Shown: piece by piece, positions 47,386-63,400 of the stretch | Layout of the letters: each line of letters starts with the position of its first letter | How positions within the stretch are numbered: position 1 is the first letter of the stretch | DNA from: Abditibacteriaceae bacterium | GTDB taxonomy: Bacteria; Armatimonadota; Abditibacteriia; Abditibacteriales; Abditibacteriaceae | Reading direction: 5' to 3' | DNA length: 64,000 nt | Assembly: GCA_019239895.1 (NCBI GenBank) | Contig: JAFAZH010000014.1 | Span: 1-64,000 of the forward strand | Translations under genes and position numbers: made by a program | The notes under the pieces: model-generated | Databases searched by the model: none | What the model was told of the DNA's origin: nothing | What the model saw: the letters and a program-made list of their open reading frames with translations, nothing else

Positions 47386-47892
47386 ATGGAACTTGTCGAG
47401 CAGTATTGGCTGGCTGGTATCCTGGAGGGGGAGGGGTCATTCATGGCAGGGCCACCATCCAAACCCAACCTTCCGAGCATCCAGATGACGACGACAGATG
47501 AAGATGTAGCAATAAGAGTAGCTTCTTTATTAGGGGTTAAATCCAGGGCAATTTCTGGAAGACGATTTGCTGAGAATGGTTGGAAACAGGCTTACTTTGT
47601 CGTTCTTAAAGGAGAACGTGCCTACCACTTAATGGCGCAGCTTAAGCCGTTAATGAGTAGACGAAGACAACAACAGATTGATAAGGCAATGGCGTGTTTT
47701 TGTAAGAAGAAGTTAGGGACGGGTCAATTGAAATTGACTGACGATATGATCCGTGAAATCAAAACCAGTGCGGACGAAGCAAAACATTTAGCTCGGAGAT
47801 TTGATGTCCATACGACAACAATCTACCGTATTCGCAATGGCACCAGACACGACATTCCACAAGACAATGTGAGTTTGATGATTGCAGATTAG
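47386..47892 (+). CDS. Freestanding LAGLIDADG homing-endonuclease-like protein with HTH
   Basis: The 168-residue product has one LAGLIDADG helix, YWLAGILEGEGSFMAG (residues 7-22), where the motif reads L-A-G-I-L-E-G-E-G, the common EGEG variant. A single motif means it would act as a homodimer. Basic segments RRFAENGWKQAYFVVLKGER and MSRRRQQQIDKAMACF are consistent with DNA contacts. The C-terminus has a Hin-like helix-turn-helix, EAKHLARRFDVHTTTIYRIR. It sits in the 577-bp space between tRNA-Gly and tRNA-Arg, with no intron visible in either tRNA. This suggests an endonuclease targeting a tRNA-linked site. Confidence 0.85.
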   Translation: MELVEQYWLAGILEGEGSFMAGPPSKPNLPSIQMTTTDEDVAIRVASLLGVKSRAISGRRFAENGWKQAYFVVLKGERAYHLMAQLKPLMSRRRQQQIDKAMACFCKKKLGTGQLKLTDDMIREIKTSADEAKHLARRFDVHTTTIYRIRNGTRHDIPQDNVSLMIAD

Positions 47893-49697
47893 AGGCTCAA
47901 ATCTACAATCCGCAATCGAATGCGCCCGTAGCTTAACGGATAGAGCAAGTGGTTTCTACCCACTAGGTTGGGGGTTCGATTCCCTCCGGGCGTATCGAAA
48001 GACGTTGAAGTTTCGAACCACTCCCCAAGAGGGGCAGGGGACGGCACTGGGGGCGGCAGGCGGTCACTGCCTTTTGGGGTTAATGGGCCTTGTGGCACCA
48101 ACGGCAGGTAAAACTGCGCCCGGTGGCAGCCATCGGGCATCCAGTAGATCTTCCGCACCACCAGCCGCAGCAACCTTTGTATCTCCTCCGGCTGCGCCTC
48201 CGCCGAAATTTCAGCGAAGTTAGCGAACTGGCGGCGGAAACGTGCCGTGTCGAACTGCCTCTCCAATGGGGTCAGTGCCCCTTCGAGGCGGCGCTGTTCC
48301 GAGCGCAACCGTTCGCGTTCCAGGTGAAGCTCCCGCGCCCTCTCGTTGAGGAAGCCCAGCAGGGCCGCGTCCGCCTTACCGGAGCTGATGGTGGAGACGA
48401 GGGCGTCGATCTCATCCTGGCTATCTTGGAGGCAGGCTCTGGTCTGGGTCAAGGCTTCCTGTTCGGGGAGCAGATCCGCCACCGCCTTGGCCTGCGCGGA
48501 TGCGACGGCCCTATTCGCCAGGTCTTCGTCCTGCGCCAAGGCAGCGATCTGCTCCAAAATCCAGGATTCCGGCCAGCGTGCCAGCACATAGTTGCGGTGG
48601 TCGCACCGCTTCCACCCCTTGGCTTGCTGGGCGCAAAGGTAAGAGAAGATGTAAGAGGGCCGCTTGCGCCGCCCCCCTGCCTTGTGATGCACGTAATAAG
48701 GGGTCATGGAATGGCCGCAGATGCCGCAGATCAGGATCTGTTGGAGCGGATAAACGCGCCCGCACTGGTTCTTGGTGTAGCTGTGCGGCTTGCCCACGCG
48801 GTTGGGGGAGGAGAGGGCTTTTTCCTGGCGGACAGCCTGGGCCAGGTCGAACAGGTCCCGTGAAATGACCGAATCGTGGGGCGCCTTGACGATTCTATAG
48901 GCTTCTGCTTCCGGGAGTTCCTGGATGCCCTGGTTGCGCTTGTTGATCTCGATCTCAGCGACATAGCGGCGGTTGCGCAGCATGTTCCTGATCGTGCTGG
49001 GCGACCAGGCCGACTTGCCGTTCAAGGGCGGTATCCGGTGCGCTCTGAGCCAGTCGCGCACCGCGCAGTCGCTCCTGGTATCAACGTAGGTCTGGAACAT
49101 CTGCGTGACGAGGTCGGCCTTGTCCGGGTCGGGATACATGACGTGCGTCTGAGTGTCCAGATAGAAGCCGAAGGGCACGAGACCGCCGTTCCACATGCCT
49201 TTTTCCGCGCGCATCCGCATCTTCGACCTCACCTTCTCCCCGGTTTGCTCTCGCTCATAGGTTTTGGCGGCCACCAGCATGGTTTCCATGAAGCGGCCTG
49301 AAGCCGTCGCGCGGTCAGCGCGGTCATGGAGCGTGACGAATTCGACCTTGTGGTTCTTCATCTCCCGGTCCAGAGTATAGAAGTCGCGGCTGCGGGTGAA
49401 GCGGTCATACCAAGTGCAGACCACCACGTCGATCTGTTCCGTCTCAATGAGCCACCGCAGGCGCGTGAGGCCGGGCCGGTTCAGCGATCCCGCGCTGTAG
49501 CCTTCGTCCGTGATCGGCTCGCACACTTCCCAGCCCTTGGCCCCACAAGCTGCTTCCAGTTCCTCGACTTGGGACTCGCAGCTTGGGTACAGCCCCTTGG
49601 TCTGCTCGTAGGTGCTGACGCGCGCGTAGAGGGCGGCGCGTTTTCGGTTATCGTCTGGCGGTTGCCCGGTTAGTCTGACCACAGGTTTTGAGCGCAT
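47889..49697 (-). CDS. Large serine recombinase (site-specific integrase)
   Basis: Catalyses integration or excision using an active-site serine. The 602-residue product contains the resolvase domain (ALYARVSTYEQTKG, catalytic Ser about 28; WYDRFTRSRDFYTLDREM; GRFMETMLVAAKTYEREQTG), the recombinase domain (GLVPFGFYLD, WSPSTIRNMLRNRRYVAEIE), a zinc ribbon with CGICGHSMTPYYV and later C, and a coiled-coil region rich in Glu/Ala/Leu. The last 45 residues run antisense through tRNA-Arg (NRTPNLVGRNHLLYPLSYGR), a hallmark of an integrase gene fused to its attachment site. AGGAG 12 nt upstream supports the ATG. GC content is visibly higher than the genes to the left. Confidence 0.93.
   Translation of the reverse strand: MRSKPVVRLTGQPPDDNRKRAALYARVSTYEQTKGLYPSCESQVEELEAACGAKGWEVCEPITDEGYSAGSLNRPGLTRLRWLIETEQIDVVVCTWYDRFTRSRDFYTLDREMKNHKVEFVTLHDRADRATASGRFMETMLVAAKTYEREQTGEKVRSKMRMRAEKGMWNGGLVPFGFYLDTQTHVMYPDPDKADLVTQMFQTYVDTRSDCAVRDWLRAHRIPPLNGKSAWSPSTIRNMLRNRRYVAEIEINKRNQGIQELPEAEAYRIVKAPHDSVISRDLFDLAQAVRQEKALSSPNRVGKPHSYTKNQCGRVYPLQQILICGICGHSMTPYYVHHKAGGRRKRPSYIFSYLCAQQAKGWKRCDHRNYVLARWPESWILEQIAALAQDEDLANRAVASAQAKAVADLLPEQEALTQTRACLQDSQDEIDALVSTISSGKADAALLGFLNERARELHLERERLRSEQRRLEGALTPLERQFDTARFRRQFANFAEISAEAQPEEIQRLLRLVVRKIYWMPDGCHRAQFYLPLVPQGPLTPKGSDRLPPPVPSPAPLGEWFETSTSFDTPGGNRTPNLVGRNHLLYPLSYGRIRLRIVDLSL
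47922..47994 (+). tRNA. tRNA-Arg (anticodon TCT)
   Basis: Acceptor GCGCCCG pairs with CGGGCGT (first pair G-T), D-arm GCTT..GAGC, anticodon stem AGTGG/CCACT around loop TTTCTAC with anticodon TCT, and T-arm GGGGTTCGATTCCC. The 3' half overlaps, antisense, the end of the recombinase gene. TCT reads AGA/AGG codons. Confidence 0.92.
47970..47994 (+). other. Candidate attachment site in the tRNA-Arg 3' end
   Basis: The recombinase gene lies immediately beside the 3' end of tRNA-Arg and reads into it, so the crossover site most likely falls within the T-arm or 3' acceptor, around GGTTCGATTCCC TCCGGGCG. A second copy would mark the other end of the element; none is present in this window, so the right end is beyond 64000 or has been lost. 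Confidence 0.45.
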
Positions 49698-50596: not shown

Positions 50597-50629
50597 GGCG
50601 TTGCGCCCGTGACGCTTCCTTGGCCTTGG

Positions 50630-53600
50630 GGTTCACCCCCACCTACGTGGGGAACACCACTGCCCGCAAATTCGCGGAGTGGTAATGTTCGGTTCACCCC
50701 CACCTACGTGGGGAACACCGGATGCTATCTGTCGTTAATGGCGTGCTGCCCGGTTCACCCCCACCTACGTGGGGAACACCCGTTGTATTGATCCTCATTT
50801 GCTTGGCCCTGCGGTTCACCCCCACCTACGTGGGGAACACCAGAGCGGGTGTAGAGTAAGACTCTCGGCTGACGGTTCACCCCCACCTACGTGGGGAACA
50901 CGCAATGCTTGTCCTCATGCCGTTGTCAATGCGCGGTTCACCCCCACCTACGTGGGGAACACCTTAGCCCAAGCTGTGACCGCTGCGCCGTAAGCGGTTC
51001 ACCCCCACCTACGTGGGGAACACATCCCGTCTCTCTCATCTTCGCCCACCGCCGTCGGTTCACCCCCACCTACGTGGGGAACACGTTACGATGCGTGGCG
51101 GTGTGCAGCCGGAAAGCGGTTCACCCCCACCTACGTGGGGAACACGACCTGAGCATCGGTGCAGTGGGGCCAATCGCCGGTTCACCCCCACCTACGTGGG
51201 GAACACGATAGACTCGCGCCGATCAAGACCCGTTCATCTGGTTCACCCCCACCTACGTGGGGAACACAAATGGCTTTAATTGCGAACAACGGATTCAATC
51301 GGTTCACCCCCACCTACGTGGGGAACACACCCGCACTCCACGCGCCGCCGCCAATCTGTACGGTTCACCCCCACCTACGTGGGGAACACATTTACCATTT
51401 TGTTCTCTCTCCGTGCTTAATCGGTTCACCCCCACCTACGTGGGGAACACGGATGCTTCTTGTGTTGATGCGCTGGCGGGCGCGGTTCACCCCCACCTAC
51501 GTGGGGAACACCGGATTGAGCTTTCTGACCTCGCGCAATAGGGCGGTTCACCCCCACCTACGTGGGGAACACTGCCGATCATGAATTGCATGACCATCCG
51601 TGGGCGGTTCACCCCCACCTACGTGGGGAACACCGCAAAACCCTCCATCCATCTGGCAAAGCTGTCGGTTCACCCCCACCTACGTGGGGAACACCAGATT
51701 GCGCAGAAAACCGTGCTAACGGGAGCCGGTTCACCCCCACCTACGTGGGGAACACAGCATCTTAAAAGCCAGTTTCTTGGAGAATGGCGGTTCACCCCCA
51801 CCTACGTGGGGAACACGTAAGCAGTGGTTATACGTGCTTCGTCTGACTCGGTTCACCCCCACCTACGTGGGGAACACGAACCTGTTCTTAGTGGGGTAGG
51901 GTTTGATACCGGTTCACCCCCACCTACGTGGGGAACACTCGGGTTGCAGGTCAGGGTTAATGCGCTGTGGCGGTTCACCCCCACCTACGTGGGGAACACT
52001 CGAGGAGAACTTTCTGACTGTGGCGGCGCGGCGGTTCACCCCCACCTACGTGGGGAACACTGGCACCATGACTAATGCGACGGTTCCGGCAGCGGTTCAC
52101 CCCCACCTACGTGGGGAACACGTATCGCTCGCGCTGGCCTTGCCACTTCTGCTCGGTTCACCCCCACCTACGTGGGGAACACGTAGCAGGACTCTTGCGG
52201 GTGCCGCGTCCAATCGGTTCACCCCCACCTACGTGGGGAACACTTCTGTGGCAGGAGTGGCAATATTGCCACTCGCGGTTCACCCCCACCTACGTGGGGA
52301 ACACGGCAGCCATAGCTGCGGCTCCTGCGCTGTCGTCGGTTCACCCCCACCTACGTGGGGAACACTTAGGAGCGTGCTGTATATAGCAGTCACCTTGCGG
52401 TTCACCCCCACCTACGTGGGGAACACGTCAGCAATGTTATCACGCACGACAGCACAACCGGTTCACCCCCACCTACGTGGGGAACACGCAATGGCGCTGC
52501 CTCTGGCTTGCCCTTGCCGCGGTTCACCCCCACCTACGTGGGGAACACCTGCGTCATATCCACGATCACTTCAATGACCGCGGTTCACCCCCACCTACGT
52601 GGGGAACACCGCAGTTGATAACGTGGTGAGGTTAGCGGCCACGGTTCACCCCCACCTACGTGGGGAACACTTGACCCCTAAAGAAGATGGCAAGCCCAAA
52701 ATCGGTTCACCCCCACCTACGTGGGGAACACGTAAATAAAAGCCACATTAGGATACTCTAACCCGGTTCACCCCCACCTACGTGGGGAACACATAGGATG
52801 CCGAACCATCGAAATTCACCACGCCGGTTCACCCCCACCTACGTGGGGAACACACCATCAAGCAGACGCTCAACTCGACCCAGTTGGGTTCACCCCCACC
52901 TACGTGGGGAACACGTGGGGCGGCTAAATATGTCCTTTAGCCATACCGGTTCACCCCCACCTACGTGGGGAACACGGTGAACCAGTAGATTTGCTGAATG
53001 AAGCAGGCGGTTCACCCCCACCTACGTGGGGAACACGATGGCCAATATCCTCGAAGCCGGTGCCGTCGCGGTTCACCCCCACCTACGTGGGGAACACGGA
53101 GAGTTTCGAGCTTGGCGTGGCGTGAGAGCCGGTTCACCCCCACCTACGTGGGGAACACAGCGTCCAACTCATCAGCGACCTGCTTTAGCTCGGTTCACCC
53201 CCACCTACGTGGGGAACACGCTGTCAGCGTCGCATTGCGACCACTAATAGTCGGTTCACCCCCACCTACGTGGGGAACACTCATCGCTCTAAGCCTCCTC
53301 CAGACCCTCTTTCGGTTCACCCCCACCTACGTGGGGAACACGTTATCAATATACTTCTGCACGGTGTTCAAATCGGTTCACCCCCACCTACGTGGGGAAC
53401 ACTGGGCCATCATGTCCGCCGTGGCCTGCTGCTGCGGTTCACCCCCACCTACGTGGGGAACACTTCCTTAACCGCCCGGCGCAACGCCGTGCCTGCGGTT
53501 CACCCCCACCTACGTGGGGAACACTGACGCCTAATCCTCAAGACCCCTGCTCCGTGCGGTTCACCCCCACCTACGTGGGGAACACCCCACTTATCAACGG

Positions 53601-53829
53601 GCTTGGTCTTGCGCACTCGGTTCACCCCCACCTACGTGGGGAACACGCCACGCTGATTGCCGCCGCGCAGAATGGTGACGGTTCACCCCCACCTACGTGG
53701 GGAACACCGGCTGCACCTGCTTGTCGGCAAAGAGATAGCCGGTTCACCCCCACCTACGTGGGGAACACGCAACCGGATGCGGTGCAATGCGCGTCTACGA
53801 CGGTTCACCCCCACCTACGTGGGGAACAC
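50630..53829 (-). CRISPR. Type I-E CRISPR array, 53 repeats and 52 spacers
   Basis: A 28-bp repeat starting GGTTCACCCCCACCTACG and ending TGGGGAACAC recurs at exactly 61-bp steps, from 50630 to 53802. I find 53 copies by position and 52 spacers, all 33 bp (or 32 bp with a 29-bp repeat, because 50 of 53 repeats are preceded by C). Read on the minus strand the repeat is GTGTTCCCCACG..GTGAACCG, the classical I-E form with a CCCCAC/GTGGGG stem and an 8-nt crRNA handle GUGAACCG. The leader is therefore at the high-coordinate side, near the cas genes. No internal repeat variation was noticed. cas3 to cas1 follow on the opposite strand. Confidence 0.98.
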
Positions 53830-54096: not shown

Positions 54097-55068
54097 ATGT
54101 GTGGGCGAGGACAATTGGAGCGCATCATGAGCATGGATCGCAAGATTCGGGCTGGCGAGTATCCCAACGCCCACAGCATCGCGGAGGAGTTCGACCTCAA
54201 GCCCCGCGTCATTTATGATGATCGTGCCTTTATGAAGAACCGCTTGAGAGCACCTATCGCCTATGACCGTAAGCGACATGGTTGGTATTACACCGATACC
54301 GCTTGGGTCTTGCCGTCAGCATTTGTCACGCAGGGCGAGATGCTGGCTTTTTTTCTGAGTGTCGAGGTGGCCCGCCGTTACCTGGGCACGGCCCTCGAAG
54401 CGCCGCTGAAATCTGCTGTGCAGAAAATCACCCAGGGCTTGGAGAGTCGGGTCGAGGTGGACTTGGACTCACTGCGCCAACATTATACGTTTGCCGCGCC
54501 GCCCTCGCTCAAGGTAGACGAAAGGATTTTGGCGATGCTCGATGGGGCGATTCAAACCCAGCGTCAGGTGCGGATGCGCTATTTCACGGCAGCGCGTGGT
54601 GAGCACACCGAACGCACCGTAGACCCTCACCACTTGAGAAATGTCGGCGGCGACTGGTATCTCCTGGCCTTCGATGATGCCAGCCGCCAGATGCGTACCT
54701 TCCATGTCGGGCGCATTGAGGAGTGGCAGCAACTGGACACAGGCTTTACCTTCCAGCCGGATTTCGATGTCGAAGCGTGGCGGCAAACCGCGTTTCAGGC
54801 CGAGGCGACCGCCGAGCAAACCGATGTCGTGGTGCGCTTCGATGCTTACCAGGCTCGCTACATCCGCGAGCGCCACTGGCACGACAGCCAGCAGATCGAA
54901 GAACTGCCGGATGGCGGCCTCCTCCTGCGCCTGCACACCGGCGGATTAGGCCAGGTGCAACGGTGGGTGATGCAGTATGGCAACCACGCCGAAGTCTTGG
55001 AGCCGCCAGAGTTACGCGCCGCCGTGCAAAACGAAGTGCGCGGGATGAGGGAACGATATGACCAGTAA
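54097..55068 (+). CDS. WYL-domain transcriptional regulator
   Basis: The 323-residue protein has an N-terminal winged HTH (ERIMSMDRKIRAGEYPNAHS then IAEEFDLKPRVIYDDRAFM, DeoR/HTH_11-like), a central WYL domain with MRYFTAARGEHTERTVDPHH and LRNVGGDWYLLAFDDASRQM (the W-Y-L triad), and a C-terminal WCX extension from about residue 235. WYL proteins near CRISPR loci bind nucleic acids or nucleotides and control cas expression or defence. Here the gene lies between the array leader, which fires in the other direction, and the cas operon. A strong AAGGAG and TATAAT support the start. Whether it activates or represses the locus cannot be told. Confidence 0.9.
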   Translation: MCGRGQLERIMSMDRKIRAGEYPNAHSIAEEFDLKPRVIYDDRAFMKNRLRAPIAYDRKRHGWYYTDTAWVLPSAFVTQGEMLAFFLSVEVARRYLGTALEAPLKSAVQKITQGLESRVEVDLDSLRQHYTFAAPPSLKVDERILAMLDGAIQTQRQVRMRYFTAARGEHTERTVDPHHLRNVGGDWYLLAFDDASRQMRTFHVGRIEEWQQLDTGFTFQPDFDVEAWRQTAFQAEATAEQTDVVVRFDAYQARYIRERHWHDSQQIEELPDGGLLLRLHTGGLGQVQRWVMQYGNHAEVLEPPELRAAVQNEVRGMRERYDQ

Positions 55069-55072
55069 GACA

Positions 55073-55162
55073 ATTTGCGCCCCCACTAGTGTAGGGAAGG
55101 TGATCCCGGTATTATCCAGTCTCATCCATAAATCGGTTCACACCCACTTACGTGAGTCTATA
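55073..55162 (-). ncRNA. crRNA-like regulatory RNA (CreA/CreR-like): pseudo-repeat, spacer, pseudo-repeat
   Basis: On the minus strand a degenerate repeat (55162-55134) ends in the intact handle GTGAACCG, then comes a 32-nt spacer-like sequence starting ATTTATGGATGAGACTG, then a second degenerate repeat (55101-55073). The two repeats are exactly 61 bp apart, as in the array, and match it at about 19 and 16 of 28 positions. Each keeps a hairpin with G-T pairs: CTCAC/GTGGG and CCCTAC/GTGGGG. The first repeat has lost its 5' part, where TATATA may be a -10 box; the second has lost its 3' handle. This is what processing by Cas6e into one crRNA requires. The spacer pairs partly with 55252-55283. 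Transcription itself is inferred. Confidence 0.75.
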
Positions 55163-55251
55163 TAGAGTTTACAATTGTTGCGCAGAAAGGTCATTGGGGA
55201 TAGTGGACAAAGTTCAGGATACTCAGGGCCTTGAATCTTTGTAAGCTTTGT

Positions 55252-55286
55252 GTTGAGATGAGAGATCAGTCACATCCTTAAATCTT
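55252..55286 (-). promoter_or_regulatory. Partial protospacer with AAG PAM targeted by the crRNA-like RNA
   Basis: On the minus strand, AAG (55286-55284) is followed by ATTTAAGGATGTGACTG (55283-55267). The spacer of the RNA at 55073-55162 reads ATTTATGGATGAGACTG, identical except at positions 6 and 12, which are flipped out and unread in type I-E Cascade. Beyond position 17 there is no match, so Cascade could bind but Cas3 cleavage should not be licensed. The site abuts the AGGAGG of the gene at 55300; binding would block its transcription and probably that of cas3. A weak promoter (TTGAAT at 55231, TGAGAT at 55254) overlaps it. Confidence 0.75.
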
Positions 55287-55299
55287 AGGAGGATCAGTT

Positions 55300-55488
55300 A
55301 TGACCCGTAATTCCGTTCGCGCAACTGTGTTTGGTTTAATGGCCCAGAGTAGGCACTATGAGTATGACGAGGACAGCTTGATTCGAGATACGCGGCGTGA
55401 GCATCCAAAGGCACTCCAGAGTACAATTCTGCGTTACCGCAACGACTACAAGCAATGCAGGGGTAGCCACAAGCTTATTTGTAGATGA
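55300..55488 (+). CDS. 62-residue protein between the Cascade target site and cas3
   Basis: AGGAGG at 55287-55292 sits 7 bp before the ATG, the strongest ribosome binding site in the locus. The peptide reads MTRNSVRATVFGLMAQSRHY, then EYDEDSLIRDTRREHPKALQ and a tail STILRYRNDYKQCRGSHKLI. It is charged, probably helical, without a signal peptide or membrane helix. It is the first gene after the crRNA-like target, so repression by Cascade would silence it. It may be a small toxin kept silent by CreA-type RNA, a cas-operon leader protein, or an adaptor; no family is recognised. It is 83 bp before cas3 with a hairpin between. Confidence 0.6.
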   Translation: MTRNSVRATVFGLMAQSRHYEYDEDSLIRDTRREHPKALQSTILRYRNDYKQCRGSHKLICR

Positions 55489-55502
55489 ACTCACCGTAGC
55501 TT

Positions 55503-55543
55503 AAGTTGCTACCTACACCAGCCAAAGCGACAGGTAGCAACTT
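55503..55543. terminator. Strong hairpin between the 62-codon gene and cas3
   Basis: AAGTTGCTACCT (55503-55514) and AGGTAGCAACTT (55532-55543) form a perfect 12-bp stem with a 17-nt loop. The following sequence GAGCTGTATTTC has only a weak T content, so it may attenuate, or protect the 5' end of the cas3 message, rather than fully terminate. It lies 29 bp upstream of the cas3 ATG. Confidence 0.6.
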
Positions 55544-55571
55544 GAGCTGTATTTCTCGTGTAAGGATTGAA

Positions 55572-58289
55572 ATGACGAGCATCGCTTATAAATTATGGGC
55601 CAAATCTGATCCTTATCATCCTCTCTGGTGCCACTTATTGGATGTGGCTGCTGTCGCCAAAGCTCTCCTACCACGCTTTGGGCCGCTGGAGGAGATGCCA
55701 ACGGAATGGGCTTGCTACTTATGTGCTTTGCACGATATTGGCAAGGCTGACCCCTGGTTTCAAAACAAAGACGCCACGTTAGCTGAAGCCTTGGCACAGT
55801 TGGGGTTGAAGTTGCCGGAGCGGTTGGATACGACTTCATCGTCCATGCTACGTTTTCGGCATGAGGCGCGTTCGCAGGGGTGGCTGCTGGATTATCTGCC
55901 AGCACAGCACGGTTGGGGCAAGAGTGCCGCGCGCGTCGCGGTTCATGCCATTAACGGGCATCACGGCAACTTTGGGGCCGATTGCTACAAAGAGTCTGAC
56001 TGGCCTGTTCAATACGCCACTTGGAATCCCATGCGGGAACAACTGGCGCAACTGGTCTGGGACGCGCTACAACCACCGCCTTATGCGCCGCAAAAGTTCG
56101 ATCATGCGGGCGCGTTGGGCGTCACGCTGTCCGGGCTAATTATCCTCGCTGATTGGATTGCTTCCAATGACTCGGTTTACCCTTACTCCGACTTGCATGG
56201 GCACGACGATCCCAAAGCCTATTTTGCAGCCGCGCAAGCGCAGGCGCGGGCAGTTGTGCATAAGATGAAGCTGGACACGCCAGCCGCGCGGCAGCTTGCG
56301 CCGCAGCCACGCTTTGGCGATGTGTGGCCCGACTTAGCCGACTCGCCGCGCCCCTCGCAGAGCGCGCTTGAAAGCGAAGTATTGGCGGGGCGCGCAATGC
56401 CCGGCTTAGCTATCATCGAAGCGCAAATGGGGGAAGGCAAAACTGAAGGCGCGATTTACCTAAGCGAGTGCTGGAACGCTCAACGCGGTGTGCAGGGTAT
56501 TTATTTTGGACTGCCAACCCAGGCCACCAGCAACCAGATGCATGGGCGTTATGCCAAGTATTTGCGGGTGCGTCGTCCTGGCGCGTCGCCCCGCCTCGTG
56601 CATGGCATGGCGTGGCTCGTGGACGATGTAGCGCCCGCCACCACAGCGCAAACTTATGGCGATACGGAAGACCGTCTCCTGTCCCGCGAATGGTTTCGCC
56701 CGTTGCGGCGCGCTCTGCTGGCCCCGGATGGCGTGGGCACCATAGACCAGGCGTTGCTGGCCGCGTTGCACGTCAAGTTTGGGACGCTGCGCCTGTTGGG
56801 GTTGCGCGCCAAAGTCTTAGTGATAGATGAGGCGCACGCCTATGACCAATACATGACAACCATTTTGGAACAGCTTTTGAAATGGTGCCGCGCCTTGGAA
56901 ATCCCCGTCATTTTGCTATCCGCCACGCTCTCCGCACAACAGAAGGAAAGACTCGTGGGCGCTTATGGTGGCGATGTTAAAGCTCTCGCCGCCAGCGCCG
57001 AAGCCGACTATCCGCTCTTGACTTTTGTCGCGTTGGACGGCACGCCGCGCACCGTGCCTATCCAGCGCGATCCCAGCCAGGCGCGCGAACTCGGTCTCAA
57101 GCTCCATTACGGCCTATTAGACGATACGGCGCAGATTGCGCGGCAGGCATTAGAGCGTGTTGCGGATGGGGGTTGCGCTTGCCTCTTGATGAACACGGTC
57201 AAGGGCGCACAACAAGTCTATGAGGCTATCGCAGACCTCCTGAAAACTAATGAATTTGCGGCCCCAGATGTGGTGGCCTTGTTGCACGCGCGGTTTCGGG
57301 CGCAACGGCGGCAGGAAATCGAAAAGCGTGTCACCGCCCTCTTCGGCAAAGACGCCACGGTAGACAATGGCCAACGACCCCGCCGCGCTATCCTGGTGGC
57401 CACGCAGGTGGTCGAGCAATCATTGGACGTGGATTTTGACTTTTTCTTGACCCAAATTGCGCCTGTGGATTTGCTATTGCAACGCAGCGGACGCCTCTGG
57501 CGGCACCACAAACACGATGCGGCTCGTCCCGCCTTAGATGCTGGCCCTGTCCTGGAAGTCTTGTTGCCCGCAGCAGCGAGTTTGAAGTTTGGCGTGAGTG
57601 AAAAAATCTATGCGCGTGTGGTGCTGCTCCGCACCCTGGCCGCGCTGCATGGCCGCACTGTACTTCATCTGCCAGATCAATTTCGCCCGCTCATTGAAGC
57701 GGTCTATGGCGAAGCCATACCAGAAAGCGAAATCGTGCCCCGGTCAGAGATCGAAGCCGCCGCCCATGCCTGGCAAACGGAGCAAGCTGCGGCCCGCACC
57801 GCAGCCAATGTGAATCTTTTGCCAGACCCACATCCGCGCGAGTTTCACTTCGTGGGACGCGACAAGGCCGAGGCCGAGGAGGGCGCGGCCAAAGACTATC
57901 TCCGCATCAGCACGCGCCTGGGCGATGACTCGCGCGCCGCGCTTGTCTTGAGCGATAAACGCCTGATCGCCCTGGCGCGCTCGTCAGCGGATGAAAATAA
58001 GGGCCACAAGTTGAAACCACCGCCCCGTCGTCGCTTGCGCCGCCTGTTCAACCACAAGGTCAATCTGCCCAAGTGGTGGCTGCAAGCAGCCGAACCCGCC
58101 ACCGGCTTCGAGCCGTTTTTTGAGGGCCAGAACTGGCTGCGCGGCCATATCATAGTGCCGTTGCGCGGTGGCGAATGGCAGGCCGCCAACGGCGCAGTCA
58201 TCCGTGACGACGCTAAGCTCGGACTGACCTACACCCCTGCTGCCATAGCAGATAAAGGAGAAGAAGCCGATGCCGGAATTATTGGATGA
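55572..58289 (+). CDS. cas3: CRISPR-associated nuclease/helicase Cas3 (type I-E)
   Basis: Cas3 is recruited to Cascade-bound DNA, nicks the displaced strand and degrades it. The 905-residue protein has an N-terminal HD nuclease (PLWCHLLDVAAVAKALL, CALHDIGKADPWFQ, then HGWGK and GHHGNFG), followed by a superfamily 2 helicase: Walker A AQMGEGKTEGAIYL (about residue 285), DEAH box VLVIDEAHAYDQYMT (about 417), LLSATLSAQQKE, and QVVEQSLDVDFDFFLTQIAP with LLQRSGRLWRH. All catalytic motifs are intact. An earlier TTG lies inside the upstream hairpin, so the ATG at 55572 with TAAGGA upstream is used. Its 3' end overlaps cse1 by 20 bp. Confidence 0.96.
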   Translation: MTSIAYKLWAKSDPYHPLWCHLLDVAAVAKALLPRFGPLEEMPTEWACYLCALHDIGKADPWFQNKDATLAEALAQLGLKLPERLDTTSSSMLRFRHEARSQGWLLDYLPAQHGWGKSAARVAVHAINGHHGNFGADCYKESDWPVQYATWNPMREQLAQLVWDALQPPPYAPQKFDHAGALGVTLSGLIILADWIASNDSVYPYSDLHGHDDPKAYFAAAQAQARAVVHKMKLDTPAARQLAPQPRFGDVWPDLADSPRPSQSALESEVLAGRAMPGLAIIEAQMGEGKTEGAIYLSECWNAQRGVQGIYFGLPTQATSNQMHGRYAKYLRVRRPGASPRLVHGMAWLVDDVAPATTAQTYGDTEDRLLSREWFRPLRRALLAPDGVGTIDQALLAALHVKFGTLRLLGLRAKVLVIDEAHAYDQYMTTILEQLLKWCRALEIPVILLSATLSAQQKERLVGAYGGDVKALAASAEADYPLLTFVALDGTPRTVPIQRDPSQARELGLKLHYGLLDDTAQIARQALERVADGGCACLLMNTVKGAQQVYEAIADLLKTNEFAAPDVVALLHARFRAQRRQEIEKRVTALFGKDATVDNGQRPRRAILVATQVVEQSLDVDFDFFLTQIAPVDLLLQRSGRLWRHHKHDAARPALDAGPVLEVLLPAAASLKFGVSEKIYARVVLLRTLAALHGRTVLHLPDQFRPLIEAVYGEAIPESEIVPRSEIEAAAHAWQTEQAAARTAANVNLLPDPHPREFHFVGRDKAEAEEGAAKDYLRISTRLGDDSRAALVLSDKRLIALARSSADENKGHKLKPPPRRRLRRLFNHKVNLPKWWLQAAEPATGFEPFFEGQNWLRGHIIVPLRGGEWQAANGAVIRDDAKLGLTYTPAAIADKGEEADAGIIG

Positions 58290-59907
58290 AGTTGCCACGC
58301 CTGCCATGCCGACTCAACAAGAACCTCGCTTTGATGTCGCTTATGAGCCGTGGCTGCCTCTCGTGCGCGAGAATGGAGATGTGGAGGAAGCCGGGCTTAT
58401 TGAAACCCTCTGCCAAGCGCACGAGATACAAGCGATTCGTGACCCGATGCCGCCCGTCGAGTGTGGTTTAGTGCGCCTGTTGGTTGCCTTTGCCTTAGAT
58501 ATTTTTGAACCGGATGGCGCGGCAGATTGGGAAGAGGTCTGGGAGATGGGCCGCTTTGACGAGGCGCGGGTGCGGGCCTACTTCGACAAGTATGCGGATC
58601 GTTTCAACTTGTTCGACGAGGTGCATCCTTTCTTGCAAGATGCCGCTGCGGGTGGCGATGATAAGCCCCTCGCGGGCTTATTGCCGTCGCAACCAGCGGG
58701 CACTAATGCGGCGCATTTTCAGCATGGGGTCGAGGCGGATTTCGCGGTAGCGCCCGCGCTGGCGGCGCGGCTGCTGGCGACGATTGCCCCCTTTATGACG
58801 GCGGGTGGGGCGGGGCTGTCGCCCTCCATTAACGGCGCACCGCCTTGGTATGTGCTACTGCAAGGCGCTAATTTGTTTGAGACTATCTGGCTCAACTGCC
58901 TGGTGCTGGCCGACCTGCGGCCCAAAGTGCAAGCAGATGTTCCAGCCTGGCGCGATGATCGCCCGCTGCTCAAGACAGATCGCACCGAAGCCGGATTGTT
59001 AGAAGCCTTAACGTGGCGTCCGCGGCGCATTCGCCTCGTGCCGCACTTGGCTCCCCAAGGCAATGGGCGCTGCGCTTTGAGCGGACAGGAAACGCCGGTT
59101 CTGGTGGGGCGCATGAAGTTTGCCGCTGCCTGGAGTACGCGCTTTGAATGGCGCGACCCCAACGTGCCGCGTCGCGTCTCCACTGAAGGCGCGATTGTGT
59201 TGCGCCCCCGTGAAGGACGCGAAGTGTGGCGTGATGTTGGCGCGCTCGCCCTCCTCCGCCATAGCGAGCGCGGGGGCAGTGAGCGGCCCAGCATCGTCTC
59301 GCAATTCGCGTCACTCATTGAGCAGCAATATTTGCCGGAAGATACGCCACTCCGCCTGGCGCTGTATGGGATGCGCACGGACATGAAAATGAAAGTTTTC
59401 GAGTGGCACCGTGAAATGCTCCGATTGCCCGCACCCCTCTTATGGCAACAGCAGTTTCAAAGCCAGGCGACGGATGCCATAAAACTGGCCGACGATGTTG
59501 CTTATGCCCTGGGACGCGCTATCAAACACACTTATCCACGCGACGGCGCGGGCAACGACAAGGCTTTCGAGCCGCTCATCGCGCGGGCGCAAAGCCAGTT
59601 CTGGCGGCGTTTGCGTCCCTACTACACTGATACTCCAGATTCGCTATTATATCGTCTTGCGCCTCTTCATCCAGAGCGTGACGGCGCACAAATTCAGGCC
59701 GCTATTCAAGAGTGGCACAAGGCGATGCGACAAGTGGCGCAACGCGCGTTAGACCAGGCCATTGGTGAACTGGATACTGACGGCGCGGCCATGAAACGCC
59801 AGATGGAAGCACGCAGCCAGTTTGCGGGGCGATTATGGGCACTCTTGAATCCCGAAGCTGCCGCAACCGCCAAAGAAAAGAAGAAAAAGGAGTCCAAGCA
59901 TGAATGA
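58270..59907 (+). CDS. cse1: Type I-E Cascade large subunit Cse1 (Cas8e)
   Basis: Recognises the PAM and recruits Cas3. The 545-residue product begins ATPAMPTQQEPRFDVAYEPW, followed by DVEEAGLIETLCQAHEIQAI and LVRLLVAFALDIFEPDG, then a FNLFDEVHPFLQDAA block typical of Cse1, and ISTNA-like helical C-terminal four-helix bundle (DAIKLADDVAYALGRAIKH). ATG at 58270 follows GGAGAAG and overlaps the cas3 end by 20 bp, so translation is coupled. The length is close to E. coli CasA (502). Confidence 0.95.
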   Translation: MPELLDEVATPAMPTQQEPRFDVAYEPWLPLVRENGDVEEAGLIETLCQAHEIQAIRDPMPPVECGLVRLLVAFALDIFEPDGAADWEEVWEMGRFDEARVRAYFDKYADRFNLFDEVHPFLQDAAAGGDDKPLAGLLPSQPAGTNAAHFQHGVEADFAVAPALAARLLATIAPFMTAGGAGLSPSINGAPPWYVLLQGANLFETIWLNCLVLADLRPKVQADVPAWRDDRPLLKTDRTEAGLLEALTWRPRRIRLVPHLAPQGNGRCALSGQETPVLVGRMKFAAAWSTRFEWRDPNVPRRVSTEGAIVLRPREGREVWRDVGALALLRHSERGGSERPSIVSQFASLIEQQYLPEDTPLRLALYGMRTDMKMKVFEWHREMLRLPAPLLWQQQFQSQATDAIKLADDVAYALGRAIKHTYPRDGAGNDKAFEPLIARAQSQFWRRLRPYYTDTPDSLLYRLAPLHPERDGAQIQAAIQEWHKAMRQVAQRALDQAIGELDTDGAAMKRQMEARSQFAGRLWALLNPEAAATAKEKKKKESKHE

Positions 59908-60631
59908 GGCAACAGTAGCCGCCGTTGCGCCGCAACCGGCAACAGCCGTCATTGAAGATGCCGCTGGCGAGAGTAGAGCCAGCGACAAGTCGCAGCAATT
60001 TCCTAAACACGACACGCTGAAAATTAAAGACTGGTGGGAGGCGTTGGCTCAGGCCCGTCAATTCGTGTGGAAGTTAGAGGATTTGCGCGACCCGAAAGTA
60101 GCAAGTTTGCGTGGCATCAACCGAGGCAAGTTGGCGGCGTTAAGGCGTAACGCCGGGGCCACAACAGGGACATCACGCGGTGTGGCATGGGTTGCGGATT
60201 GGCTGCATGAGGTGCCTGTAGGTCAGCACGAACAATTTTTTCTAATTGCTACTCTTTTCGATCTCAATCGTAAGCCGCCCATTATGAGAGATTTCGGCGA
60301 GACGATGCGGCGCGTCAAGGAGAATGCCAGCGACTCGTTTGAGCGACGCTTCCTCGTGTTGCTCGACGCGCAATTTGACCTTATCTATGATGCGCTCGAC
60401 GGCACGAGGAGCGGGGGTGGTGAACTGACTTATCGCTTAGACCAGATGGTGAAACTGGCCGCGTCCAAAGAAGTCGGCGTCAACTGGCCGGTGCTGTTAG
60501 CCGACCTCTGTTGCTGGGAGTTGCCCGGCAAACCGGTGCAGAAAAAATGGGCGCGCAATTTCTACGCGCCCCGTTTAGCGCCAGATGACGACCTATCTGC
60601 TGTGTCATTGCTTAGTAGCGACCCCGCTTAA
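59900..60631 (+). CDS. cse2: Type I-E Cascade small subunit Cse2 (Cas11e)
   Basis: Two copies form the belly of Cascade and stabilise the R-loop. The 243-residue product has an N-terminal low-complexity Ala-rich extension, then LKIKDWWEALAQARQFVWKL and LRGINRGKLAALRRNAGATT, the basic segment that binds DNA in Cse2, and a helical body including DSFERRFLVLLDAQ. It is longer than E. coli CasB (160) mainly through the N-terminus. It starts 8 bp inside cse1, indicating coupling. An 87-bp gap follows before cas7, the largest in the operon. Confidence 0.92.
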   Translation: MNEATVAAVAPQPATAVIEDAAGESRASDKSQQFPKHDTLKIKDWWEALAQARQFVWKLEDLRDPKVASLRGINRGKLAALRRNAGATTGTSRGVAWVADWLHEVPVGQHEQFFLIATLFDLNRKPPIMRDFGETMRRVKENASDSFERRFLVLLDAQFDLIYDALDGTRSGGGELTYRLDQMVKLAASKEVGVNWPVLLADLCCWELPGKPVQKKWARNFYAPRLAPDDDLSAVSLLSSDPA

Positions 60632-60718: not shown

Positions 60719-61927
60719 ATGTTGATTGAAATTCATGTTTTACAAAACCACGCGCCCAGCAACCTCAACCGCGATGAGTCTGGCAGCCCCAAGGAGTGCA
60801 TGTTTGGTGGCCACAAGCGTGCCCGCATTTCGAGCCAGTGTCTCAAGCGCAGCATCCGCCGTTCCGCTCTGTTTCAGCAGGAATTAGAAGGGCATCTCGC
60901 CACGCGCACGCGCCGCTTGCCTGAGCTGATGCGCGAGCGTTTCCTGGCCGAAGGCTTCGATGCGGAGATGGCCGAAGTCGCCGCGCAAAAGGCCAGTGGC
61001 TTTGGCACCAATGAAGGCAAAGAGCAAAAGCCCAAAGACGGCAAATACCCCACCGCGCAGACCATGTTTCTCACATCCTATGACATTGCAGCGGTTGCCA
61101 CTGTCCTGCTCAATGCGGCGCGTGAAGCAGGCACCGCCAAGAAGTTCGCGGCGCTCAAAGCCGCCGACTTGCAAGCCCTCGCGCAGCAAAAGGGCTTTCG
61201 CCAGACGACCGTAGACATTGCCCTCTTTGGCCGCATGACAACCTCTGCTGCCTTCCGCGATGTGGAAGCTGCCATGCAAGTCGCTCATGCGCTTTCAACC
61301 CACAAAGTGGATCACGAATTTGATTATTTTACCGCCGTGGACGACTTGAAAAACACGGCGGAAGAGGCGGCGGAAGAGGACGCAGGCGCGGATATGTTAG
61401 GTGATGTGGAATACAACTCCGCCTGTTACTACAAGTATTTCTCCCTGGATGTGGATGGCCTCATCGCCAATCTGACAGGGGCTAGCGCGCGGCGCAAAGA
61501 CATCCTTGACTCTGAAAAGCAGGAAGCCCGTGAACTGACGGGGCGCACCGTGGACACCTTTCTGCGCGCCATGACCCTGACCACGCCAACGGGCAAGCAG
61601 AACTCGTTCGCCGCGCACCAGTTACCCGCTGCTATTCTCGTGGAAGTGCGGCCCTATGCGGCTCCCGTATCCTATGCCAATGCCTTTGTTGATCCGGCGC
61701 GGCCTGGACGCGACGGCGACCTCGTGCAAGCCTCCCTCAAAAAACTTGGCACCCACGTCGAGGCGCTTACTACTGGCTTCAATCTGCCCAGTGCTGCGCG
61801 TTTCCTGCTCGCGCCAGAACACAAGGAGTTTCAAATTGATGGTGTGACGCGAGTCGCCAGCCTGAACGAATTATGCCAGCAACTCCACGCGACGGTTGAA
61901 GGAGGCAATGGAGGCGGCAATGGCTAA
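60719..61927 (+). CDS. cas7: Type I-E Cascade backbone subunit Cas7 (Cse4)
   Basis: Six copies wrap the crRNA spacer. The 402-residue product begins IEIHVLQNHAPSNLNRDESG and HKRARISSQCLKRSIRRSAL, the RRM and thumb residues that flip every sixth base of crRNA-DNA pairs, and later has AHALSTHKVDHEFDYFTAVD and TVDTFLRAMTLTTPTGKQNS. It is full length. An AGAGGAGA ribosome binding site precedes it in an 87-bp spacer containing a short AT-rich segment; an internal promoter or processing site is possible. Its stop overlaps cas5. Confidence 0.96.
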   Translation: MLIEIHVLQNHAPSNLNRDESGSPKECMFGGHKRARISSQCLKRSIRRSALFQQELEGHLATRTRRLPELMRERFLAEGFDAEMAEVAAQKASGFGTNEGKEQKPKDGKYPTAQTMFLTSYDIAAVATVLLNAAREAGTAKKFAALKAADLQALAQQKGFRQTTVDIALFGRMTTSAAFRDVEAAMQVAHALSTHKVDHEFDYFTAVDDLKNTAEEAAEEDAGADMLGDVEYNSACYYKYFSLDVDGLIANLTGASARRKDILDSEKQEARELTGRTVDTFLRAMTLTTPTGKQNSFAAHQLPAAILVEVRPYAAPVSYANAFVDPARPGRDGDLVQASLKKLGTHVEALTTGFNLPSAARFLLAPEHKEFQIDGVTRVASLNELCQQLHATVEGGNGGGNG

Positions 61928-62681
61928 ACCCATTCTTCTGCTGCGCCTGGAAGGGCCGTTGCAAGCGTGGGGGGTGCGTTCGCGCTGGGATGTGCGCGAC
62001 ACCGGTACAGAGCCAACCAAATCGGGCATCATCGGCTTGCTCGGTTGCGCCCTCGGCTACCCTATGCACGACCCCCGCCTGGAAAGCGAATTAAACGCGG
62101 GCTTGCGCTTTGGCGTGCGCGTGGAGCATCCCGGCACGGTGACGGTGGACTATCAGACGATCACCGATTACCTGCCCACTGCGGCGGGCCAATATAAGAG
62201 TCGCGGCGGCGTCAAGTCGTGGGACGCGATCCAGCGCGAAGGTGACTTGCCCGCCACAATTATCTCGCCACGCGCCTATCTCGAAGATGCAGCGTTCCTC
62301 GTGGCCTTAGAGGAGCGCCCCGCATTTTATGGATTGGTGGCACGCTGCGCCCAAGCTCTGCAAGCCCCGCAGTGGCCGCTCTTTCTGGGACGTAAAGCCT
62401 GCATTCCGACCCGCCCCATCTTTGAAGGCTGTGTCACCACTTATGATGGGCTGGAAGACGCTCTGGCCCAACACCCGTGGGAATGGCTGGGCGCGTGTCA
62501 CGGGCGACGCAAATATAAACCCGCCGATCTGGTGGCCTATATCGAAGACGAGACGGGCGACCTGCTGCGCCAGGACGCCATCCGCATCAATGCGGCCCGT
62601 ACCTATGATTTTCGACCGGTGCGCCGCGCATCTTTCAAACCTGTGCCGCCGCCCGACCCGGTAGCGCCTGTGGAGGCATAA
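61920..62681 (+). CDS. cas5: Type I-E Cascade subunit Cas5
   Basis: Cas5 holds the crRNA 5' handle. The 253-residue product starts MAKPILLLRLEGPLQAWGVR followed by SRWDVRDTGTEPTKSGIIGL, the RAMP-fold opening of Cas5e, and continues with KSRGGVKSWDAIQREGDL and the C-terminal FDRP-like region RTYDFRPVRRASFKP. Two earlier ATGs are in frame, but the ATG at 61920 gives the conserved N-terminus and has GGAGG upstream. It overlaps cas7 by 8 bp and cas6e by 1 bp. Confidence 0.95.
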   Translation: MAKPILLLRLEGPLQAWGVRSRWDVRDTGTEPTKSGIIGLLGCALGYPMHDPRLESELNAGLRFGVRVEHPGTVTVDYQTITDYLPTAAGQYKSRGGVKSWDAIQREGDLPATIISPRAYLEDAAFLVALEERPAFYGLVARCAQALQAPQWPLFLGRKACIPTRPIFEGCVTTYDGLEDALAQHPWEWLGACHGRRKYKPADLVAYIEDETGDLLRQDAIRINAARTYDFRPVRRASFKPVPPPDPVAPVEA

Positions 62682-63400
62682 TGCTCTATATTTCACAACT
62701 GATTCTCAACCCGCGTTCGCGCCAGGTGCAGGCGGAGTTGCGTGACCCTTATCAGATGCACCGCACGCTCGCCAAGGCGTTTGGTGATGGGCCGGGCGAG
62801 TGGGAGGCGGCGCGGTGCTTGTTTCGGGTGGATCAGCGGCCCATTGCCATTGCCCGCGAGATGGAAGCGCCGCACCTGTTAGTGCAGTCCCTGGCGCTGC
62901 CCCACTGGGAGCGTCTTACCGTAGCGGGGGACTATCTCATTGGCGTGCCGGAAATACGCGAATCGAATCCGCAGTTTCGGGCCGGGCAGCGACTCGCTTT
63001 CCGCTTGCGCTGCAATCCTACCGTCAAGCGCAACGGCAAGCGGGTGGGCCTGTACCAAGAAGAGGAGCGCCGCGCCTGGCTGAATCGCAAGGCGCAGGAG
63101 AATGGCTTTCGCGTGCTTCATGCGGTGCTGCGCGAAGCAGGGCCGCAACCCCTGGGCGAAATCTGGCGCGACCCTGGCCCCACTGCCGATGATAGGGAGC
63201 CGCTTCAATTTCGAGTGCCGCTTAAAGGCGGGGATCGCATTGACTCCACGCGGGTACCCAACCGAGCCGCCTTTAGCGCCGCGCAATTTGATGGCGGCCT
63301 CACGATCCTCGATCCGGCAGTCTTCAAAGACGCACTGTGTGCTGGCATTGGCTCCGGCAAAGCCTTTGGCTTTGGTCTCTTGTCGCTGGCCCGCGCTTAA
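62681..63400 (+). CDS. cas6e: CRISPR repeat endonuclease Cas6e (Cse3)
   Basis: Cleaves the pre-crRNA hairpin and stays bound to the 3' hairpin. The 239-residue product has LYISQLILNPRSRQVQAELR and DPYQMHRTLAKAFGD, with the Tyr and His (about residues 24-27) corresponding to the catalytic pair of Cas6e, and the C-terminal glycine-rich loop GIGSGKAFGFGLLSLA. A basic stretch RCNPTVKRNGKRVGLYQ fits RNA contact. Its start shares the A of the cas5 stop. Cleavage after the stem would produce the 8-nt handle GUGAACCG seen in the array. Confidence 0.95.
   Translation: MLYISQLILNPRSRQVQAELRDPYQMHRTLAKAFGDGPGEWEAARCLFRVDQRPIAIAREMEAPHLLVQSLALPHWERLTVAGDYLIGVPEIRESNPQFRAGQRLAFRLRCNPTVKRNGKRVGLYQEEERRAWLNRKAQENGFRVLHAVLREAGPQPLGEIWRDPGPTADDREPLQFRVPLKGGDRIDSTRVPNRAAFSAAQFDGGLTILDPAVFKDALCAGIGSGKAFGFGLLSLARA

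Follow-up and report, generated by a model that had tools for sequence, protein, structure and literature searches.

The window, i.e., the whole stretch of 64,000 nucleotides that was analysed, holds a complete type I-E effector set (cas3, cse1, cse2, cas7, cas5, and cas6) in which all genes run in one direction (Table 1). A WYL-domain gene, whose product is a putative transcriptional regulator of the CRISPR locus, is placed between the main array and the cas operon, and a mini-CRISPR is found between the WYL gene and the cas operon. A partial match to the spacer of this mini-CRISPR lies directly upstream of the operon, which consists of a 62-codon ORF (ORF62) followed by cas3 and the Cascade genes. 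On either side of the CRISPR-Cas locus there is a large serine recombinase (the two share about 20% identity), one in the window (47889–49697, minus strand) and one in L066 (12719–14458, i.e., contig positions 65718–67457, plus strand), and given these the locus might be, or might once have been, on a mobile element. Outside the window a second short array (L066 11930–12398, about 64.9–65.4 kb on the contig) is located downstream of cas1-like and cas2-like ORFs; its repeat, GTATTCCCCACAGGCGTGGGGGTGAACC, differs from that of the main array.

Table 1. Features of the CRISPR-Cas locus, in window coordinates
Feature	Position	Strand	Remarks
Main I-E array	50629–53829	-	29-nt repeats (53) with 61-nt period; leader side close to 53830
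WYL/WCX-domain protein	54097–55068	+	Pfam WYL and WCX; PADLOC CRISPR-associated WYL models
Degenerate repeat 2	55073–55101	-	16/29 vs. array repeat; stem CCCTAC/GTGGGG intact, handle lost
Spacer (guide) ATTTATGGATGAGACTGGATAATACCGGGATC	55102–55133	-	Exactly 32 nt
Degenerate repeat 1	55134–55162	-	20/29 vs. array repeat GTGTTCCCCACGTAGGTGGGGGTGAACCG
Partial protospacer (target)	55252–55283	-	Matches guide positions 1–5, 7–11, 13–17
PAM AAG	55284–55286	-	AAG beside the target in all four relatives too
Shine-Dalgarno-like AGGAGG of ORF62	55287–55292	+	Adjoins PAM
ORF62	55300–55488	+	62 codons; first gene downstream of target
RNA hairpin	55498–55548	+	17 bp, one U-G pair; between ORF62 and cas3; no T-run; z -5.3
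cas3	55572–58289	+	Type I-E, HD nuclease and helicase; start chosen by reading
cse1/cas8e	58270–59907	+	Overlaps cas3 end
cse2/cas11e	59900–60631	+	
cas7e	60719–61927	+	
cas5e	61896–62681	+	
cas6e	62681–63400	+	Expected processing enzyme for mini-crRNA

The minus strand from 55162 to 55073 reads repeat-spacer-repeat (29, 32, and 29 nt) and shares its 61-nt period with the adjacent I-E array, in keeping with the preliminary description, which placed one spacer between two degenerate repeats here. Repeat 1 has an intact 8-nt I-E 5' handle, GTGAACCG, and keeps a full 6-bp stem (ACTCAC/GTGGGT) despite three changed stem bases, as one change is two-sided and compensatory (C-G to A-U) and another turns a C-G pair into U-G. 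The identity of repeat 2 to the array repeat is on its own not above the window background, a point in favour of a chance resemblance, and its assignment is based on the exact spacing and the intact stem. The guide takes its handle from repeat 1, and repeat 2 should only need to be recognised and cut by Cas6e; a first repeat with handle and stem and a second with stem only thus fit the needs of the guide. Rfam gave no match between 49500 and 56000.

The guide is identical to the minus strand from 55283 to 55267 at all 15 of positions 1–5, 7–11, and 13–17, with mismatches only at positions 6 and 12, and beyond this 3 of 15 positions (18–32) match, i.e., chance level. The earlier claims of a 15/17 match with mismatches exactly at positions 6 and 12, of an AAG PAM and of a similarity ending at position 17 can thus be read directly from the DNA. 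That AAG serves as the PAM is inferred from knowledge of the E. coli I-E system and from the five loci considered here. Next to no weight can be given to the idea that the match arose by chance or as a short-duplication artefact: none of 4000 spacer shuffles reached 14/15 against 55166–55571, and among the 53 array spacers the highest score is 10/15 in the same region and 13/15 across the whole window. The masked 17-mer occurs exactly in the 6.65-Mb genome only at the spacer and at the target; near-matches to it are at the level of control patterns and the four that were inspected are without AAG.

The closest relatives of Cse1 (40–54% identity) are encoded by genomes of the same phylum as the window and by three titled MAG contigs, two of them named Armatimonadetes and one Chloroflexi. 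In four relatives (L033, L035, L037, and L038), which are apparently Armatimonadota, cas3 and cse1 are several hundred bases apart and the interval holds a mini-CRISPR. Their repeats are only 16–17/29 identical and, because of this and of the location between cas3 and cse1, the elements were missed by a plain repeat-identity scan upstream of cas3, which found no element; they were recovered by a handle-plus-stem scan. L032/L036, L034, and L040 are without a comparable element, and the scan candidates in L032 and L034 were by reading dismissed as noise (tandem local repeats; a tRNA-like end). The guides of the relatives are mutually unrelated, and each pairs with its own AAG-flanked site ahead of its own Cascade operon. 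The comparison of related genomes for covariation, proposed in the preliminary description, therefore came out positive: spacer and target both differ, each pair matches beside AAG, and the mismatches are mostly at positions 6 and 12, with others at guide position 1 in L037 and position 9 in L035. In the mini-CRISPR of L035 (9898–9922) the spacer is only some 20 nt long, and the second repeat has 19/29 identity to the array of L035.

Compared with its own array, repeat 1 carries one two-sided compensatory stem change in the window, three in L035 and two in L038, which argues for selection on a Cas6-type substrate; in L037 it has a 6-bp stem and a 3-nt loop. It is therefore highly improbable that the window element is a functionless relic, i.e., a decayed short array with a spacer once taken from the neighbouring promoter. 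Self-derived spacers are known to occur and the repeats have diverged strongly (20/29 and 16/29), but the decay is non-random: the handle has been retained, and so have both stems, with compensatory changes; the read positions between 1 and 17 are intact, divergence is seen at the unread positions 6 and 12 and in the PAM-distal half, and the same pattern is found in five genomes with different sequences.

Chance is also contradicted by two comparative tests. In a target-blind survey of 350 kb, 20 elements were picked on handle and stem only, and for each the best match nearby to the first 12 nt was ranked regardless of PAM or masking. AAG was present at the best local match of five of the 20 elements, which are exactly the five ahead of Cascade operons, and at none of the other 15. 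In a permutation test guides and targets of the same locus agreed at 48 of 50 read positions, more than in any other of the 120 permutations (38 in the next). The earlier view that a plain duplication is less likely is thereby strengthened. Position by position, 1–5, 7–11, and 13 were matched in four or five of the five loci and positions 6 and 12 in one each. The relatives were first spotted in a scan that used a PAM set and the read positions, so that in the relatives the pattern at positions 6 and 12 is consistent with, and no independent proof of, these positions being unread; the window pair was picked in the preliminary description.

Neither strand gave a consensus promoter call around the window target; by reading, TTGAAT-17-TGAGAT (55231–55259) is a weak promoter candidate. 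The L033 protospacer covers the -10 element of a TTGACA-17-TATATT promoter, and the distal end of the L038 protospacer reaches, by reading, a TTGACA just before cse1 that was not called as a promoter. As cas3 and cse1 overlap in the window, bound Cascade would affect all genes of the operon, provided that its parts are not uncoupled by the hairpin after ORF62 or by an internal promoter. This hairpin, which is present in a single copy in the genome, could split ORF62 and cas3 into two transcripts.

It is conceivable that the locus is an addiction or abortive-infection module similar to CreTA or CrePA, where the mini-crRNA silences a toxic small gene or RNA (55300–55488) that is set free when Cascade is lost or inhibited. 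The strong ribosome-binding site directly beside the PAM, the place of ORF62 as the first ORF downstream and the stable hairpin after it are in agreement with this. A small ORF is also found between target and cse1 in L033, L035, and L037, but in L033 it is followed by cse1 within about 15 nt, and in L038 the target precedes cse1 without a comparable small gene, so that the common denominator is the Cascade operon. Furthermore, there was no match to KilA-N or any other toxin family, and the L037 ORF is RHH-like and unrelated. A toxin module is consequently unlikely. By reading, no tRNA-sequestering signature of the kind expected for a CreT-type toxin RNA was recognised. Ahead of the RHH-like ORF an inverted repeat (ACTTCGT...ACGAAGT; L037 9702–9770) surrounds a TATGAT box; by reading, this repeat could be the operator of the RHH-like protein.

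The origin of the small ORFs could be followed in part. ORF62 has no match in Pfam, PHROG, NCBIfam, or PADLOC, and a single-sequence search of 291 genomes of the phylum gave no homologue. The ORFs of L033 and L035 have no match in Pfam or PHROGs. Phage sequences gave weak matches to the L033 ORF and none to ORF62 or the L035 ORF; scanning viral contigs with the L033 ORF yielded no relative, the homologue searches with the small ORFs gave no plasmid match, and a three-row profile recovered well only the sequences it was built from. Small phage proteins form a family to which the L033 and L035 ORFs belong, as a phage-only profile recovered them among 4700 ORFs with E-values of 1.1e-7 and 5.7e-5, respectively, and phrog_24961 is assigned to one phage member of this family. 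With the same profile ORF62 came at rank 7 (E 3.6), i.e., not above noise, which also speaks against the toxin module, and leave-one-out profiles did not recover it, so kinship of ORF62 with the phage family is not claimed; a relation to the L033 and L035 ORFs is possible from a likeness by eye. Structures modelled for ORF62 and the L033 ORF from single sequences were of low confidence. Some of the phage kin adjoin recombination genes; those in the phage records L085, L087, and L086 are next to genes for an ERF single-strand annealing protein, a host-nuclease inhibitor, or a Holliday junction resolvase.

The locus resembles several known systems. CreA, the antitoxin RNA that together with the CreT toxin RNA makes up CreTA (PMC8501985, PMC9458426), also has two degenerate repeats, pairs at positions 1–5 and 7–11 next to a PAM and tolerates changes at positions 6 and 12 (PMC8501985), whereas the unit targeted in the window includes the Cascade genes. 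CrePA, with a CreA antitoxin RNA and the protein toxin CreP (PMC12737573), is similar in having a small protein gene under a putative Cascade-targeted promoter, and in two relatives this gene is phage-related; in contrast, the small gene of the window lacks a KilA-N domain and heads the cas operon. The Racr RNA anti-CRISPRs of phages (PMC10651486) are also repeat-like RNAs outside an array, but they are solitary viral repeats, whereas the window holds a host mini-CRISPR with a matching target upstream of an operon. The locus also shares features with CreR, a crRNA-like RNA from a mini-CRISPR beside the cas genes of an intact Cascade system with a partial PAM-flanked match ahead of the cas operon (PMC13131331, PMC12737573). 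According to reviews, CreRs autorepress type I-B, I-E, and V-A systems (PMC13131331), and competing crRNAs and anti-CRISPRs relieve the repression (PMC12737573). In the window degenerate repeats surround a spacer outside the array and near the cas genes, the cognate effector is present (full cse1-cse2-cas7-cas5-cas6 plus cas3), and pairing is seed-limited (1–5, 7–11) with a PAM and without a full match. It differs from CreR in a match that extends to position 17 and in the small ORF that separates the target from the first cas gene (also found in three relatives).

Taken together, it is very probable that the mini-CRISPR encodes a CreR, i.e., a crRNA-like RNA that would guide nuclease-free Cascade to autorepress the cas operon. 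The covariation in four relatives lends the CreA/CreR-like interpretation of the preliminary description, in which the small gene, the cas operon, or both are repressed, good support at the level of sequence, and as the targets in the relatives precede cse1, either directly or via a small ORF, autorepression of cas is favoured over a stand-alone toxin module. The mini-CRISPR would be transcribed from the minus strand, and cleavage of the transcript by Cas6e beneath the preserved stem would release a crRNA with a normal 5' handle; the predicted small RNA carries 5' GUGAACCGAUUUAUGG. Loaded into Cascade, it would bind the AAG-flanked site at 55283–55252 via positions 1–17 and block ORF62 and then cas3-cse1-cse2-cas7-cas5-cas6. 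Since the match stops at position 17, a full R-loop and cleavage by Cas3 should not follow. The outcome would be negative feedback over the whole cas operon, presumably relieved once ordinary crRNAs or anti-CRISPRs occupy Cascade.

CreR has already been reported in type I-E systems, to which the window locus adds another probable member. What may be new is that an exchangeable and partly phage-related small gene heads a Cascade-autorepressed operon. It is tempting to speculate, if only tentatively, that the protein of this first gene appears only once Cascade has been titrated or disabled and then serves as an autoregulator of a second layer or as an effector that senses anti-CRISPRs; the latter would unite CreR feedback and a CrePA-like alarm in one operon. 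If autorepression by CreR is correct, a self-limiting CRISPR circuit is kept in five genomes, apparently from a lineage that is little studied, each with its own matched guide and target. This would provide natural covariation evidence for type I-E CreR autorepression, consistent with idle guide positions 6 and 12. The first gene, small and co-repressed, would offer a testable link between autorepression and an alarm response to anti-CRISPR proteins.
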